This document shows, piece by piece, positions 28,020 through 58,526 of a stretch of 64,000 nt of DNA. Position 1 is the stretch's first letter, and each line of letters opens with the position of its first letter. The DNA comes from Christiangramia sediminis (lineage in GTDB: Bacteria > Bacteroidota > Bacteroidia > Flavobacteriales > Flavobacteriaceae). Under the pieces are notes generated by a model that had not been told where the DNA came from, made no database searches, and saw nothing but the letters and a program-made list of their open reading frames with translations. The stretch spans positions 434,001 to 498,000 of the forward strand of contig NZ_JAJBZG010000005.1 of the NCBI RefSeq assembly GCF_020552705.1, read 5' to 3'. Both the position numbers and the translations under genes were made by a program.

Positions 28020-29606
28020 TCAACCCTTGGAAAGTTTAAGTTTCATTCCCGGTTTAAGGCTATTTGTGTTCATATCATTCCATGACCTCAAATTTTGTAC
28101 CGTAACGCCGGGGAACTTCTTTGAAATACTCCAAAGGGAGTCTCCGTTCTTTACTGTGTACACTCTTGAATCTGAACTTTTTCCTGAACCGGATGCATTT
28201 GAACTTGAAGCAACTTCTACCGGTTTTCGGGGATAGATGGTTAAATACTGGCCTACCCGAAGGTTGTTACTTCTCATATTATTCCAGCTCTTGATGCTGC
28301 TAATACCAACTCCGTATTTCTCCGCTATTTTTCCTAAATAATCTCCGCTCCTAACTTTATACCGAATTCGGTCTTCGGTTTCAACATACTGCGGAAGGTC
28401 CTTCTTTTCTTCAGCTTTCTGATTCTCTACAAAATCGTAAATAGCGCTCTCATTAGAAACAAATTTACCTGTGGCTGGCTTCGGAAGTCTTAAACTGTAC
28501 TTTTCGTCTTCTACAAATGGAATAATATCAAGTTTATAGCTTGGGTTTAAAAACTGTAACATTTCCTTTTCAACACCTGTTATTTTGGTAATTTGATCAA
28601 AAGAGAGTAATTGTTTTACCTGAATGGTATCTGTTTCAAAGTACACTACATCTGGGTTTGGTGGCTGAAAATTATGCTCATCGGCATACTCGAATAAATA
28701 CAGAGTGGCCAGGAATGCAGGAACATATCCAGCTGTTTCACGTGGAAGAAATCTTCTCAAATGCCAGTAATCTGTAGAACCACCGCTCCTTCTAATCGCT
28801 TTTGAAACATTCCCCGGACCGGAGTTATAAGATGCCAGTACAAGGTCCCAGTCACCAAATACTTTATAAAGACTCGCCAGGTATTGCGCGGCTGCTTCAG
28901 TGGCTCTTTCAGGATCCATACGTTCATCTACATAAGAACTAACATCAAGGCCATGCATTTTTCCGGTAGTGAACATAAATTGCCACAAACCGGTTGCCCC
29001 TACCCTGGATTTTGCCCTGGGATTTAAAGCAGATTCAACTATAGCCAGGTATTTTATCTCTAAAGGAATATCATATTTATCCAGTTCCTGCTCAAACATG
29101 GGAAAATAATAGGTACTCAAAGCCATTAAGCGTTCCATCCCTTGCTTATTCCTTTTAAGATAGGATTTTATAACACTTTCAAGAATCGGATTATATTCTA
29201 CGTTAAAGGGAGTTCTTGCATTCAGTTTGGCAAGACGGGCCTTTAGGGTATCGGTAGGAAGCTCTTTATATACTACATCTTCATAATCTTGCTCTCTGAT
29301 ACTTTTCTGCATTGTTTCAAAAAGCTCTGAATTTGTTAATTCTAGCTTCCATAAAGAATCTATGGTTTTAGCGCGGGGAAGATCCTGGAGTTTTACCTTT
29401 GAAGAATCCCTGATAACTGCAGAGATAGGTAATTTATCTCTAAATTCAGGGTCAGGCTGAGCTAGCTTTATTTCTGTATCGTCGCTTTTCTGAAATATCT
29501 GAACGCGGAAATTAGCTTTTTCTACTCTCTCCTTGTTCTGTTTTTCCTGAGCCAGAGTAGAAATTCCAGCCAGGAGCAACACCATTAAAATTTTTCGTTT
29601 CAGCAT
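28020..29606 (-). CDS. LysM lytic murein transglycosylase (MltD-like)
   Basis: 528 residues. A signal peptide (about 1-19) is followed by an N-terminal helical region, then a type 1 lytic transglycosylase domain (about 170-300). The catalytic Glu is in IVESALNPRAKS, with GATGLWQFM and ASYNSGPGNV as further motifs. Two LysM repeats follow (about 410-455 and 480-526, YKVRSGDYLGKIAEKYGV and YTVKNGDSLWSISKKFPG). It cleaves glycan strands in the periplasm. It lies 49 bases downstream of pgk on the same strand. Confidence 0.94.
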   Translation of the reverse strand: MLKRKILMVLLLAGISTLAQEKQNKERVEKANFRVQIFQKSDDTEIKLAQPDPEFRDKLPISAVIRDSSKVKLQDLPRAKTIDSLWKLELTNSELFETMQKSIREQDYEDVVYKELPTDTLKARLAKLNARTPFNVEYNPILESVIKSYLKRNKQGMERLMALSTYYFPMFEQELDKYDIPLEIKYLAIVESALNPRAKSRVGATGLWQFMFTTGKMHGLDVSSYVDERMDPERATEAAAQYLASLYKVFGDWDLVLASYNSGPGNVSKAIRRSGGSTDYWHLRRFLPRETAGYVPAFLATLYLFEYADEHNFQPPNPDVVYFETDTIQVKQLLSFDQITKITGVEKEMLQFLNPSYKLDIIPFVEDEKYSLRLPKPATGKFVSNESAIYDFVENQKAEEKKDLPQYVETEDRIRYKVRSGDYLGKIAEKYGVGISSIKSWNNMRSNNLRVGQYLTIYPRKPVEVASSSNASGSGKSSDSRVYTVKNGDSLWSISKKFPGVTVQNLRSWNDMNTNSLKPGMKLKLSKG

Positions 29607-33379: not shown

Positions 33380-34261
33380 TTAAATCGCTTTAAAATGAGT
33401 TTCAGGATCTTTTTTAAAGAAATAGGTTATAGAAGAATACTCTCCAGATCGTTTTGCTTGGTGATTTGAAATAAATCCTCTATAAAAGGCATTAATCAAA
33501 TTGGAACTACCAGGTTTATTTTTCTCACTTAAAAGGCTTACGTAATAAGAATCAAATTTGAGAGGTTTTTCTTCCACTAGTCTAAATCCAAGGTGAGAAA
33601 ATTTCTCTTTAATTCCATTTCTTGAAAAATGCCAAAGATGTCGGGGCACATCCCAGGCCGCCCAATTTTCATTATAATATTTTGAATCATAAGAATTGTA
33701 ATTGGGAACTGCAATTATCAATAAGCCATCATCCTTTAATAATTTCCTGAATTCGGCAACCTTAATCTCAAAATCGGGAATATGTTCCAGAACATGCCAT
33801 AGAGTAATTACATCGTAATTGAGGTTGGTCAATTCAGAAAGTTCAGATTTTAAATTAAGGCCTTTCAAAATCCCAAGCTCGCGAGCAGTGCTATTTGGCT
33901 CTACTCCTTCCACATTCCAGAGAAACTTTTTTATGGTATTTAAAAATTCTCCAGTACCTGCCCCATAATCTAAAATACTACCTTGCTTAATATATCCTCT
34001 TATCCACGTTGTTTTTTTGGAAAGCATGTGAGATTTCACGAGATGATAAATTTTATCCTGAAGACTATTTTCAGAATCTGAGTGAGAAATATAATCCTCA
34101 CTATCGTAATATCTAGATAAATTATCGGGAAGAGGCTGCGTCCTTAAAATACCTTTTTGATATTCTTTAATTTCAAATTTTTCTCCACTCACTAAGTGAT
34201 CTGTGCAAATCAAATTTGATCCAGTTTTAATTTGAGAATTATCTTTATTTGTTTTAATCAA
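33380..34261 (-). CDS. Class I SAM-dependent methyltransferase
   Basis: 293 residues. The SAM-binding motif I is ILDYGAGTGEFL (about 96-107), followed by VITLWHVLEHIPD and LLIIAVPNYNSYDSKYY, a pattern of the Methyltransf_23/UbiG-like group often acting on sugars or small molecules. The N-terminal part (CTDHLVSGEKFEI) keeps the shape of flavobacterial relatives but no paired-Cys zinc motif. It follows mnmG on the same strand across a 37-base gap that contains a parS-like site. Substrate unknown. Confidence 0.8.
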   Translation of the reverse strand: MIKTNKDNSQIKTGSNLICTDHLVSGEKFEIKEYQKGILRTQPLPDNLSRYYDSEDYISHSDSENSLQDKIYHLVKSHMLSKKTTWIRGYIKQGSILDYGAGTGEFLNTIKKFLWNVEGVEPNSTARELGILKGLNLKSELSELTNLNYDVITLWHVLEHIPDFEIKVAEFRKLLKDDGLLIIAVPNYNSYDSKYYNENWAAWDVPRHLWHFSRNGIKEKFSHLGFRLVEEKPLKFDSYYVSLLSEKNKPGSSNLINAFYRGFISNHQAKRSGEYSSITYFFKKDPETHFKAI

Positions 34262-34275
34262 TTCAACTCGATATT

Positions 34276-34291
34276 TGTTCCACGTGGAACA
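34276..34291. other. parS-like centromere site 1
   Basis: TGTTCCACGTGGAACA is a perfect 16-bp palindrome. It matches the widely conserved ParB-binding parS consensus (TGTTnCACGTGnAACA form) in all fixed positions. It lies in the gap between mnmG and the methyltransferase gene. Confidence 0.8.
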
Positions 34292-34298
34292 CTAATAA

Positions 34299-36170
34299 TT
34301 ATCTTCCCATATAAACTAACAATACTGAAATATCATTCGGACTAACCCCGCTAATCCTTGATGCCTGAGAAACTGTGGCGGGTTGAACTTTTTTCAACTT
34401 TTCGCGAGCTTCATAAGACATGGATTTGATATTAGAATAATCAAAGTTTTGAGGAATTTTGACATCTTCTAAGCGATTCAGTTTATCGGCGTTATTTTTT
34501 TCCTTTTGGATATATCCGGAATACTTGACCTGGATTTCGGTTTGTTCAATCATCTCTTCATTAAGTTCATTTTCATGAATGAACTCCTCTACTCCACTAA
34601 AATTCTTCACATCCTCCATAGTGATCTGGGGTCTGGAAAATACTTTAAACACTTTATCGCTTTGTTTCATTGGAGATGATTTTCTTTTCTCCAAAACTGG
34701 ATTTGCTTCTTCAGGAACCACACTCAAATCTTTAAGAAATTCAACGAACTTAAAAGATTTCTCTTTTTTCTGTTCCATTTTTCTCATTCGATCTTCTGAA
34801 GCCAGACCTAAATTATAAGATCTTTCAGTTAATCTAAAATCGGCATTATCTTGTCTTAAAAGCGTACGATATTCGGCACGAGAAGTAAACATTCTATAAG
34901 GCTCTTCTGTTCCTTTGGTAATAAGATCATCAATTAAAACTCCAATATAGGCCTCATTACGTTTTAAGATAAATTCATCTTTTTCCTGCACTTTAAGGGC
35001 AGCATTTATCCCGGCCATCATTCCCTGGCAAGCGGCTTCTTCATATCCTGTAGTACCGTTAATCTGACCAGCAAAATATAGGCCATCAATCAATTTGGTT
35101 TCAAGCGTATGCTTTAACTGGGTAGGTGGAAAATAATCATATTCTATAGCATAGCCGGGTCTAAAGAATTTTACATTTTCAAAACCAGCTACAGATCGTA
35201 AAGCTTTAAATTGAACATCCTCTGGTAAAGAAGTTGAAAATCCATTTACATAAACCTCCACCGTATTCCATCCTTCCGGTTCAACAAATAGTTGATGTCT
35301 GTCCTTATCCGCAAACCGATTAATCTTATCTTCGATTGAAGGGCAATATCTTGGCCCGATACTCTGGATCCTCCCATTAAACATCGGGGAGCGATCAAAG
35401 CCTTCTTTAAGAATTTCGTGAACCTCGTTTGAGGTATAAGTCATATGACAGGAACGCTGTTTGGAAAGTGGTTTGGTTTCATCAGAATAAGAAAACTTAC
35501 CGGGAATATCATCACCGGGTTGTTCGGTCATTTTTGAATAATCCAGGGATCTTCCATCTACCCTTGGAGGAGTTCCGGTTTTCATTCTTCCGGCTTCAAA
35601 ACCTACATCTATCAAATCTTTGGTGATTCCAGTGGCAGCTCTTTCACCTGCTCTACCTCCACCAAATTGTTTATCTCCAATATGAATAAGTCCGTTTAAA
35701 AAAGTACCATTTGTACAAACCACGCTTTTACCAAAAACTTCAAGACCCAGGGAAGTTCTAACCCCTATAACTTTATCCTTTTCAATTATGAGTCCGGCAA
35801 CCATTTCCTGGTAGAAATCAAGATTTGGAGTTTGTTCTAATTTTAATCTCCAGTCCTCGGCAAATCGCATCCTATCACTTTGGACTCTTGGACTCCACAT
35901 TGCAGGTCCTTTAGATTTATTAAGCATTTTGAACTGGATAGCACTGGTATCACTTACAATACCACTATAACCTCCCATCGCATCGATCTCCCTTACGATC
36001 TGTCCCTTGGCAATTCCACCCATAGCGGGATTACAGCTCATTTGAGCAATGTTTTGAAGATTCATAGTAATGAGAAGGGTTTTGCTACCCATATTTGCCG
36101 CGGCTGCTGCGGCTTCACTACCGGCATGCCCAGCTCCAACTACAATAACATCATACTGCTTTTCGAACAT
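34299..36170 (-). CDS. mnmG: tRNA uridine-5-carboxymethylaminomethyl modification enzyme, FAD subunit
   Basis: 623 residues, standard length. The FAD motif is VVGAGHAGSEAAAAAANMG (about 10-28), with the family patches PAMGGIAKGQIVREIDAMGG and GRAGERAATGIT. With MnmE it modifies uridine 34 of certain tRNAs, which supports reading accuracy. It is bracketed by two identical parS-like sites. In many bacteria this gene (old name gidA) lies close to the replication origin. Confidence 0.98.
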   Translation of the reverse strand: MFEKQYDVIVVGAGHAGSEAAAAAANMGSKTLLITMNLQNIAQMSCNPAMGGIAKGQIVREIDAMGGYSGIVSDTSAIQFKMLNKSKGPAMWSPRVQSDRMRFAEDWRLKLEQTPNLDFYQEMVAGLIIEKDKVIGVRTSLGLEVFGKSVVCTNGTFLNGLIHIGDKQFGGGRAGERAATGITKDLIDVGFEAGRMKTGTPPRVDGRSLDYSKMTEQPGDDIPGKFSYSDETKPLSKQRSCHMTYTSNEVHEILKEGFDRSPMFNGRIQSIGPRYCPSIEDKINRFADKDRHQLFVEPEGWNTVEVYVNGFSTSLPEDVQFKALRSVAGFENVKFFRPGYAIEYDYFPPTQLKHTLETKLIDGLYFAGQINGTTGYEEAACQGMMAGINAALKVQEKDEFILKRNEAYIGVLIDDLITKGTEEPYRMFTSRAEYRTLLRQDNADFRLTERSYNLGLASEDRMRKMEQKKEKSFKFVEFLKDLSVVPEEANPVLEKRKSSPMKQSDKVFKVFSRPQITMEDVKNFSGVEEFIHENELNEEMIEQTEIQVKYSGYIQKEKNNADKLNRLEDVKIPQNFDYSNIKSMSYEAREKLKKVQPATVSQASRISGVSPNDISVLLVYMGR

Positions 36171-36189
36171 ATCCTATTCTATTTCTTTT

Positions 36190-36621
36190 CTATTGTTCCA
36201 CGTGGAACAATTCAATTTTTTCTTCTTCCTTGCGTCGCATTAATTCTTTCTCCCTTTCAGTTTTATCTTTAAAACCGCAGAAATGTAAAATTCCATGAAT
36301 TAATACTCTTTTCAATTCATCTGTAAATTGAGTTCGGAAATTTTCAGCATTATCGAGGACTCTCTCCGTACTTATAAAAATATCGCCCTGTAAAATATTC
36401 CCGACTGTGTTGTCGAAACTGATTATATCAGTATAGGTATCATGGGAAAGATATTCCAGATTGATCTTGTGGAGATATTCGTCATCACAGAAAATAAAAC
36501 TGATGTCGCCAACAAATTTTTTCTCAGACTCAATAGCTCTTTCTATCCACTGACGATATTCCTGTTCATTTTCAAGAACAAAATCATTCTCGCTAAAAAA
36601 ATTAATCTCTCCCTTTTCCAA
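36190..36621 (-). CDS. ybeY: Endoribonuclease YbeY (rRNA maturation)
   Basis: 143 residues. The metal site reads HGILHFCGFKDK, where most homologues have HGxLHLxGYDH, so the third His is replaced. I believe this Lys-Asp form is usual in Bacteroidota. YbeY trims 16S rRNA and takes part in ribosome quality control. Its last residues (FHVEQ) are encoded by the second parS-like palindrome. The start overlaps the end of the DUF4175 gene by 20 bases. Confidence 0.92.
   Translation of the reverse strand: MEKGEINFFSENDFVLENEQEYRQWIERAIESEKKFVGDISFIFCDDEYLHKINLEYLSHDTYTDIISFDNTVGNILQGDIFISTERVLDNAENFRTQFTDELKRVLIHGILHFCGFKDKTEREKELMRRKEEEKIELFHVEQ
36194..36209. other. parS-like centromere site 2, inside the ybeY end
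   Basis: A second perfect copy of TGTTCCACGTGGAACA, 1.9 kb from the first and on the other side of mnmG. It overlaps the last codons and approaches the stop of ybeY. Confidence 0.8.
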
Positions 36622-50522: not shown

Positions 50523-51046
50523 TTAGCTTTAGTTATAAACATTATATATTATATTATTTATTTCTTCTTTTTATAAAAATTTAAATGATGGTATATGATA
50601 GGGTGTTAATTTGTAGAATAATTTTATGGAGTAATATTAGGTATTTCACTTGTAAGTTTTTGATAACAGTTTATCAACATAGCTGTAAATTCATAAGTGA
50701 TTGATTTCGTTAGCTTTTTAAGATTTACTTAACAGAAGTTCATAAAATTGTTTTAAGAATGTTTATTGAAAACTTTGATATGAACACTTGTCAATAACAT
50801 GTTTTTTTATGCTCATAACTATCTCAAATTTTCCAGACTTATAATTAGATTTATTCAACTTTATGTTGGTATTGTTATTATTTTCTTAATAAACAAATTT
50901 CTTTATAAGTAAATCATCATAGGTTCTTCACAATTAGGTGTCAATATTAAAAGCCTGAAAATTAAGCGATTCGATAAAGTAATTAACAATGAAAATAAAG
51001 CGGGTTAATAGTGTCTTTTTTTAACTTTGCAGCAAACAACATAACG
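50523..51046. other. AT-rich 524-base non-coding gap, candidate replication origin
   Basis: This is the only gap over 300 bases, with roughly four fifths A+T and no credible gene. Near matches to the DnaA box TTATnCACA are TTATCAACA (50671-50679), TTCTTCACA (50924-50932) and, on the minus strand, TTATTGACA (50789-50797) with a relative at 50939-50947. Two boxes lie back to back as the inverted pair TTGATAA (50660-50666) and TTATCAA (50671-50677). Long A/T tracts could unwind. An untranslated RNA or a long regulatory region are alternatives. Gene directions do not flip clearly here, which weakens the origin reading. Confidence 0.35.
51022..51029 (+). promoter_or_regulatory. -7 box for rpiB
   Basis: TAACTTTG, 17 bases before the rpiB ATG at 51047; no good -33 element. 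Confidence 0.5.
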
Positions 51047-56840: not shown

Positions 56841-58526
56841 TTAATTGTTTTTCGAAATTTGGTCGGCTAAAATTAATGCGTTATAAAGATTTGCCATCTT
56901 TCCTGAAGTTGACAAACTCTCAAATTTTTCGGTATTATTAGTATCTCCACCCACAATTACGGTTGCTTTGGTAGTAAGCCCGCTATCCATAATGATCTGC
57001 TTAACCTGAGGAGCACTAAGTTGTGGATAATAACCTCTGATAATGGCAGCGATCCCCGCTACGGCCGGAGAAGCCATGGAAGTTCCCTGTAAATATTCAT
57101 AAGTATCATTTGGAGTGGTAGACCAGATCTTGGTTCCCGGGGCAAATACATCCACGTTGGATTTCCCGTAGTTAGAGAAATTGGCCACCATTCCTGAACC
57201 GTATTCGTAATTCAGTGCACCTACCGTAAGAAAATTATCTGCTACTTCCGTAGAATTTTCAGGATCCTGATCATTTGGATAAACTCTTTTGCTATCTAGA
57301 TCAATACCTTCATTCCCCGCAGCATTTACGATAAGCACATCATTTTCGGCAGCATATTTTATCGCATCGATCACCCATTCAGGATTGGGAGAAAAATATT
57401 TACCAAAACTAGTATTGATAACTTTTGCACCATTATCAACCGCGTATCTAATTCCCAATGCGATATCCTTATCATATTCATCACCGTCTGGAACGGCTCT
57501 TACCACCAGGATCTTTGCATTACTTGCAACTCCTTTTATACCAAGATTATTAGAACGATCTGCCGCTATAATACCTGCCACATGGGTCCCGTGTTTAATA
57601 TTTTCTTTATCTGCCTCTGGGCCGGAAACTTCGTTATTTCCATAATCTGTATCGGTAATATCGTAAGGATCATCCCCAACTACAGCACGACCGTCCAGCT
57701 CCATATTAAAATGCGTAGCAAGCCTGTCTTTATAATATTCTATGGCTTCTTCCAGTTCTGTAAGTGCTTTTGGAATATTCTCATTCACATTATACTGAAT
57801 TTGACTAAGAATAGATTTATACTGGGTCATTTGTTGAGACTGAGGTCGGAAATCTGAAAGTTGCTCTTTGGTATAATCTTCGGTCCCTAATTCCGCTGAA
57901 ACCGCCTCATGTGCTGCTGAGATCTGACTCTGAATTTGCAGGTATTGTTCCCGAGTATCAATAGCTTCAGCATATTCTTTATCATATTCAGCCTTTGCAG
58001 CTTTGTAAGTATTGTATTCTTCGCGATCTGCCGTGCTGATACTACTTTCAGCTTTTCCCTCGTATTTAGGCTTTAAGCGCTTATAAATACGGGTATATTC
58101 CATGTTCTCAGCAACAGCATCTCCTAAAAAGTTCCAGCCGTGAACGTCATCAATGTAACCATTGTTATCGTCATCTTTTCCATTGCCTGGAACTTCATCA
58201 GAATTTGTCCAGATCACTGCTTGAAGATCTTCATGTTCAATATCAACCCCACTATCTATCACTCCAACAATTACCGGAGAAGGTTTATTTTTTTTGATGA
58301 TTTCAGCATAAGCTTTATTCACACTCATCCCAGGGATGGTATCATTCACAAGATCTGCATTTGTCCAGTCCTTAAGCTGAACATCGGAAAGATCGCGAAC
58401 CTTTAAAGGAATAGAATCTATATTGCTAACAGGAGTTGAGAGTATCCTGGGAGAGGTACTGCTACATCCGGTTAATATTCCTGCTGTAAGTAGGTATAGA
58501 AATGGTTTAAAAAAAGGTATCTTCAT
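56841..58526 (-). CDS. S8 subtilisin-like lipoprotein protease with a large insert
   Basis: 561 residues. The lipoprotein signal has its Cys at residue 21 (GILTGC). The catalytic triad is Asp91 (IDSGVD), His312 (HGTHVAG) and Ser483 (GTSMASP). The Asp-His distance of about 220 residues is far above the about 32 of subtilisin; the extra part (about 140-275) is helical and charged. It lies between the MBL and M1 genes. A membrane-anchored protease facing the periplasm or surface is inferred. Confidence 0.93.
   Translation of the reverse strand: MKIPFFKPFLYLLTAGILTGCSSTSPRILSTPVSNIDSIPLKVRDLSDVQLKDWTNADLVNDTIPGMSVNKAYAEIIKKNKPSPVIVGVIDSGVDIEHEDLQAVIWTNSDEVPGNGKDDDNNGYIDDVHGWNFLGDAVAENMEYTRIYKRLKPKYEGKAESSISTADREEYNTYKAAKAEYDKEYAEAIDTREQYLQIQSQISAAHEAVSAELGTEDYTKEQLSDFRPQSQQMTQYKSILSQIQYNVNENIPKALTELEEAIEYYKDRLATHFNMELDGRAVVGDDPYDITDTDYGNNEVSGPEADKENIKHGTHVAGIIAADRSNNLGIKGVASNAKILVVRAVPDGDEYDKDIALGIRYAVDNGAKVINTSFGKYFSPNPEWVIDAIKYAAENDVLIVNAAGNEGIDLDSKRVYPNDQDPENSTEVADNFLTVGALNYEYGSGMVANFSNYGKSNVDVFAPGTKIWSTTPNDTYEYLQGTSMASPAVAGIAAIIRGYYPQLSAPQVKQIIMDSGLTTKATVIVGGDTNNTEKFESLSTSGKMANLYNALILADQISKNN

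Follow-up and report, generated by a model that had tools for sequence, protein, structure and literature searches.

Two parS-like palindromes on either side of mnmG in Christiangramia sediminis and their placement in Flavobacteriaceae

Palindromes and genes at the mnmG locus

The window analysed here is a stretch of 64,000 nucleotides (contig 1, positions 434001-498000) of the Christiangramia sediminis genome, which was searched as a whole (3,253,906 bases in 5 contigs, 99.94% complete). On the minus strand of the window, ybeY lies upstream of mnmG and a methyltransferase gene lies downstream, and a 16-bp palindrome is found at each end of mnmG. The features are listed below in window coordinates, with the strand given for genes.

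28734-28749: a weaker match to parS, TGTTTCACGTGGAAGA, within a transglycosylase/LysM ORF (28020-29606, minus strand)
33380-34261, minus strand: class I methyltransferase gene (Methyltransf_23)
34276-34291: predicted parS site 1, TGTTCCACGTGGAACA, exact match, intergenic, after the mnmG stop and before the methyltransferase ORF
34299-36170, minus strand: mnmG (gidA), TIGR00136 equivalog with 854 bits against a cut-off of 525, Pfam GIDA
36190-36621, minus strand: ybeY (TIGR00043), encoding the tail LFHVEQ before the stop, the last codons (FHVEQ) being made by site 2
36194-36209: predicted parS site 2, TGTTCCACGTGGAACA, exact match, within the 3' end of ybeY on the upstream side of mnmG
50530-51030: AT-rich conserved noncoding block before rpiB, which we infer to be a candidate oriC

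An earlier note on this DNA had described two perfect 16-bp palindromes at 34276-34291 and 36194-36209, one on either side of mnmG. Exact matching confirmed both positions, and the gene between them was identified as mnmG by its TIGR00136 match of 854 bits. The exact 16-mer TGTTCCACGTGGAACA occurs twice in the whole 3.25 Mb genome, both times in the window, whereas 0.00045 exact copies are expected genome-wide at an assumed 37.5% G+C, and shuffles of the window gave a mean of 0.13 matches to the 16-mer at up to 3 mismatches. A chance origin of the pair is ruled out by the shuffles, the genome-wide copy number and the composition expectation, in agreement with the claim of the note that such a pair is improbable (about 0.0005 genome-wide copies expected and 2 found).

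Both sites contain the exact core GTTYCACGTGRAAC, and the 16-mer is identical to the parS of Pseudomonas putida as printed in a table of PMC7022226, in which the parS of Myxococcus xanthus is given as TGTTCCACGTGGAACG; the suggested fit to the parS consensus is thus upheld. At up to 1 mismatch, the core occurs at 4 sites, all in one 55-kb stretch of contig 1 (462.7-517.6 kb), and the 2 exact copies lie among them, so that the sites are not spread evenly round the chromosome. At 2 mismatches, matches are scattered over the genome and about as numerous as those of a reversed-pattern control (24 vs 21).

The third of these sites differs from the 16-mer by 2 mismatches and from the core by 1 (core GTTTCACGTGGAAG at 28735-28748). 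In 16 of 17 genomes of the same genus, its core letters recur at a distance of 5.4-5.6 kb from the pair; G007 lacks them. Since this site is protein-coding and its neighbouring bases are likewise well kept (in one comparison, with the same-genus genome G006), selection on the DNA is not separable there from selection on the protein. Beyond the pair and the third site, the 1-mismatch matches in the genus are chance-like, and the control gives 0-4 of them per genome; the fourth site of the genome studied here (C1:517635) may therefore be due to chance.

We also considered whether the palindromes are hairpins of intrinsic terminators, since site 2 resembles a terminator by score when read on the plus strand. 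The neighbouring genes, however, are on the minus strand, and the region has about as many terminator-like matches as chance would give (3 vs a mean of 2.4). Moreover, a TTTT within the next 9 bases on the mnmG strand is uncommon, occurring at 11 of the 94 exact sites upstream and at 17 of the 80 downstream. With so few T runs and matches at chance level, the terminator explanation was rejected, and we regard it as extremely improbable.

Partner proteins and distance from the origin

In ParABS systems, ParB is loaded at parS and then slides in the form of a CTP clamp; the partition complex to which it gives rise is moved by ParA. One ParB was found in the genome by PF17762 (E 2e-37). It is encoded by an ORF of 301 aa, and a ParA ORF of 253 aa lies immediately upstream on the same strand; lack of a ParB gene, which would have spoken against parS, is thus not the case here. 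The protein matches TIGR00180 with 170 bits (cut-off 58), and its top three matches among PDB sequences are ParB chains (best E 2.4e-54), followed by Noc chains (4.1e-51). Stretches reading GERRYRA and ENIQRQD, which we take to be the CTP-binding motifs, resemble those of solved ParB chains in alignments (we take 7bnk to be Myxococcus ParB).

By E-value, the best NCBIfam match of the protein is the Noc family TIGR04285, yet this match is below its cut-off (243 vs 315 bits). Noc-binding sites go with Q at the helix position that discriminates ParB from Noc, and with a site resembling ATTTCCCGGGAAAT. Neither was found here: the recognition helix reads KNRS, compared with KERS in the top ParB chain and KGQS in two Noc chains, and the sites are GTTCCACGTGGAAC. 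At the helix-turn-helix position occupied by Q in the Noc chains, this ParB and the top ParB chain both have R.

Proximity of parS to the parAB genes is common and is not required. In the genome studied here, parB and parS are not adjacent, parB being on another contig. In the single-contig genome G006, parB (C1:892956-893258) is 1.23 Mb from parS if the chromosome is circular, unlike the usual linkage.

GC skew of the genome was calculated from forty 10-kb samples and the window, together with a continuous read of 164 kb. Left of about 490 kb on contig 1, skew is negative in five of seven samples and in the window quarters, and the two positive samples left of the window (at 250 kb and 400 kb) are rich in plus-strand genes; right of about 490 kb, skew is weakly positive or about zero. 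While the window alone has no clear cumulative minimum inside it, the cumulative skew of the 164 kb read reaches its minimum at about C1:492-498 kb, 22-30 kb from the pair. A position near the terminus, which the earlier note had named as grounds for doubt, is therefore not what skew indicates; the placement is origin-like. The skew of G006, which is collinear with the window at 82-84% identity, was sampled as well; its cumulative minimum is at about 3.48 Mb and its maximum forms a plateau at 1.2-1.7 Mb, roughly opposite. The parS pair of G006, at 3.459-3.461 Mb, is about 20 kb from that minimum.

Two descriptions of Flavobacteriaceae genomes place the origin at or beside mnmG by Ori-Finder and GC skew (PMC12843772, PMC11278836); a figure legend in PMC11278836 carries the opposite labels, with ter at mnmG, contradicting its own text. 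The sites might bind the segregation protein while the skew switch and the origin are elsewhere, leaving parS away from oriC. Some room for this is given by the skew being sampled; in the genome studied here it is also weak and follows gene direction, with 2 of 7 contig 1 samples left of the window positive. The G006 minimum so near to its pair and the roughly opposite maximum speak against such a separation, as do the two species descriptions, and we consider it very unlikely.

The gene dnaA of the genome studied here is on another contig than the sites. As an origin marker, the perfect DnaA box TTATCCACA was discarded: it occurs once in the 164 kb, at window position 57022, and its location inside a subtilase ORF makes it uninformative. 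The best cluster of TTATNNACA in the 164 kb, with 3 copies in 600 bp (next best 2), is at the block upstream of rpiB, which is 14.3 kb from site 2. This block is present in 15 of 16 sequences of the same genus, and the sixteenth (L299) ends short of it. From these sequence features, the conserved AT-rich noncoding block before rpiB is a candidate oriC.

Taken together, the copy number, the presence of parAB, the skew and the identity with the P. putida site support the reading of the palindromes as parS. We conclude that the two palindromes are very probably the primary parS sites of this chromosome, at which ParB binding is predicted.

Placement of the sites in genus, family and phylum

Among genomes of the same genus, the exact 16-mer is present in 1 or 2 copies in 24 of 24 (39 genomes searched, 26 with a match), and two exact cores are 1,909-1,920 bp apart in 17 of 17. 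The survey was then extended to Flavobacteriaceae with one genome per genus (119 genomes). At least one exact core is present in 118 of the 119 and exactly two in 102 (counted by eye), while the reversed-pattern control matched 2 of the 119, once each. Four genomes (G137, G068, G089 and G150), in which mnmG is without a match, split or broken, were left unassessed for placement, leaving 115. When up to 1 mismatch is allowed, mnmG has a parS on either side in 113 of these 115, and in 111 the flanking cores are exact. The 115 genomes comprise 35 judged by coordinates with exact cores, of which 34 are bracketed, and 80 judged by DNA sequence at up to 1 mismatch, of which 79 are bracketed. The exceptions are G055 (see below) and G141. 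In the locus of the latter (L202), a core lies inside mnmG and two more lie 840-877 bp upstream, with none downstream in the stretch examined. The single-contig genome G137 (2.7 Mb) encodes ParB and has neither a MnmG match nor an exact core, with one 1-mismatch match; perhaps an assembly gap or masking accounts for this.

The 80 genomes judged by sequence and the window give 81 mnmG loci, of which 80 are bracketed at up to 1 mismatch and 78 by exact cores on both sides. Downstream, a site is present in 80 of the 81 (79 exact); upstream, an exact core is present in 80, and the remaining locus, L153, has 1-mismatch sites there. The nearest upstream site is often within tens of bases of the mnmG start. 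A methyltransferase gene follows mnmG in 78 of the 81 loci, with the downstream site between the two genes in all 78. The spacing of the sites has a median of 1,912 bp over 80 loci and a family range of 1,891-2,386 bp, so a constant distance of 1.9 kb does not hold throughout.

A second set comprised 80 named mnmG loci chosen by similarity to the query, in some of which the contig ends early. Among named records, MnmG identity to the window was highest in a metagenome-assembled genome of Christiangramia (formerly Gramella), at 96% over residues 1-423. Exact cores within 1 kb are found on both sides in 59, upstream only in 15, downstream only in 5 and on neither side in 1 (L282, with just 215 bases of upstream sequence). 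The 15 upstream-only loci include 4 with a 1-mismatch downstream site (L240, L243, L246 and L250), 4 with tandem upstream cores 44-47 bp apart (L268, L269, L270 and L275), L281, whose contig ends early downstream, and L273, with a core inside mnmG. Upstream arrays occur in Flavobacterium, with 7 exact and 5 one-mismatch cores in L222, 7 exact cores in L223 and 6 exact cores in L225; downstream, these loci have 1, 1 and 2 exact cores, respectively. Two contigs from metagenome-assembled genomes titled Limnohabitans and Chitinophaga pinensis (L215 and L233) carry an mnmG 78% identical to that of the window and flanking sites like those of Flavobacteriaceae, and are probably mislabelled or mixed bins.

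In a phylum sample of 118 genomes, 7 have no exact core. Three of these 7 were viewed at 1 mismatch, and degenerate sites are present at mnmG in G207 and G185 but not in G243; the genome-wide 1-mismatch count of G185, however, is 4, below the 8 of its control. In G207, which is outside the class, the 1-mismatch cores at C5:167891 and C5:169785 enclose mnmG, so the bracket may not be confined to Bacteroidia. Among 16 listed non-family genomes judged by eye, 14 have a site beside mnmG, 3 of them on both sides; in the other two, G216 and G189, the sites are on contigs other than that of mnmG, and G216 has no site at up to 1 mismatch in a 6-kb stretch at mnmG.

As exact sites were chosen for the analysis of column conservation, their core columns are invariant through that choice. 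Upstream, conservation ends with the 16-mer: the outer T and A of the upstream site, which were not imposed by the search, are conserved in 93% and 97%, compared with 56-60% for the next bases. The downstream site is looser already in its outermost bases (65% and 75%), which counts against the parS reading. Within a genome, the two sites match in their number of T/A-type half-sites to a degree reached in none of 10,000 shuffles (78 pairs, with kinship uncontrolled).

It might be argued that the upstream site is a mere by-product of the conserved YbeY tail (FHVEQ), since 34 of 80 loci have it within ybeY, always in one and the same reading frame. In the other 46, however, the site is beyond the ybeY stop, indicating that conservation applies to the DNA rather than to the peptide. 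The downstream copy, moreover, is outside ybeY altogether. The YbeY tail was accordingly rejected as the cause for the family as a whole, and as an explanation it has next to no probability in our judgement.

The palindromes might instead be operators of mnmG, bound by ParB or by another factor, with the bracket existing for gene regulation. The flanking of mnmG in 113 of 115 genomes, with the nearest upstream site often only tens of bases away, speaks for this. Genome G055, however, separates the gene from the sites: mnmG is 278 kb from three exact sites, has no exact core in the surrounding 7 kb and has no 1-mismatch match listed nearby, whereas the three sites adjoin a methyltransferase homologue (45% identity to the window methyltransferase over 268 positions). 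Further evidence against operators comes from extra sites further upstream, as in G049 and G067, and from 5 of the 81 loci, in which the downstream site is 466-478 bp from mnmG behind a small ORF. Operators would also leave the origin-like placement unexplained, and we hold regulation of mnmG to be very unlikely indeed. As the sites of G055 stayed with the methyltransferase gene, far from mnmG, the parS sites seem, from this single case, to mark a chromosomal place rather than to serve mnmG.

A predicted two-site centromere and its relation to known systems

Reading the palindromes as parS, we propose that ParB from the parAB pair elsewhere on the chromosome would recognise each 16-bp palindrome, load there as a CTP-dependent clamp, slide and gather over the adjoining DNA. 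ParA would then move the ParB complex, so that newly copied origin regions part. We infer that the layout of one site per side is best and most simply explained by descent from the origin region of an ancestor, together with selection on each site and its place but not on mnmG itself. A stronger reading takes the bracket as a functional unit and not merely an inherited position: the two parS about 1.9 kb apart, with mnmG transcribed in between, would make up the smallest domain for loading ParB clamps, and loading, or transcription through the domain, would depend on mnmG. This appears unlikely to us. If true, a whole bacterial family would have a single 1.9-kb cassette as its centromere.

On our account, mnmG with a palindrome at each end would serve as a simple landmark of centromere and origin for Flavobacteriaceae, in which dnaA need not mark the origin. 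A centromere that mostly has two sites, at the same place in 113 of 115 genera, offers a natural system for the minimal number of parS and for the role of a fixed place, and G055, where mnmG is parted from the sites, separates place from gene.

The parS and ori data on gut bacteria concern species that, to our knowledge, are not Flavobacteriaceae. In that study, which includes two Bacteroidetes, the consensus TGTTTCACGTGAAACA with 2 mismatches allowed gave 1-10 parS per genome, most of them gathered at ori, and the origin is not systematically with dnaA (PMC10197239). The oriC predictions at mnmG in PMC12843772 and PMC11278836 agree with the origin placement here, and parS is not mentioned in the portions of these papers available to us. 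In the literature searched on parS in Bacteroidota, on parS together with mnmG (gidA) and on mnmG together with oriC, we found no description of a parS bracket of mnmG.

Like the ParABS-parS systems of P. putida, P. aeruginosa and M. xanthus, the system described here has a 16-bp palindrome of the same kind, few sites that are near the origin, and both ParA and ParB. Unlike those of Pseudomonas and Myxococcus, its sites are far from parAB, and exactly two exact cores are present in 102 of 119 Flavobacteriaceae genomes, usually one on each side of mnmG. The parS sites are of an ordinary, known kind, but the constancy of their position across Flavobacteriaceae is unusual.
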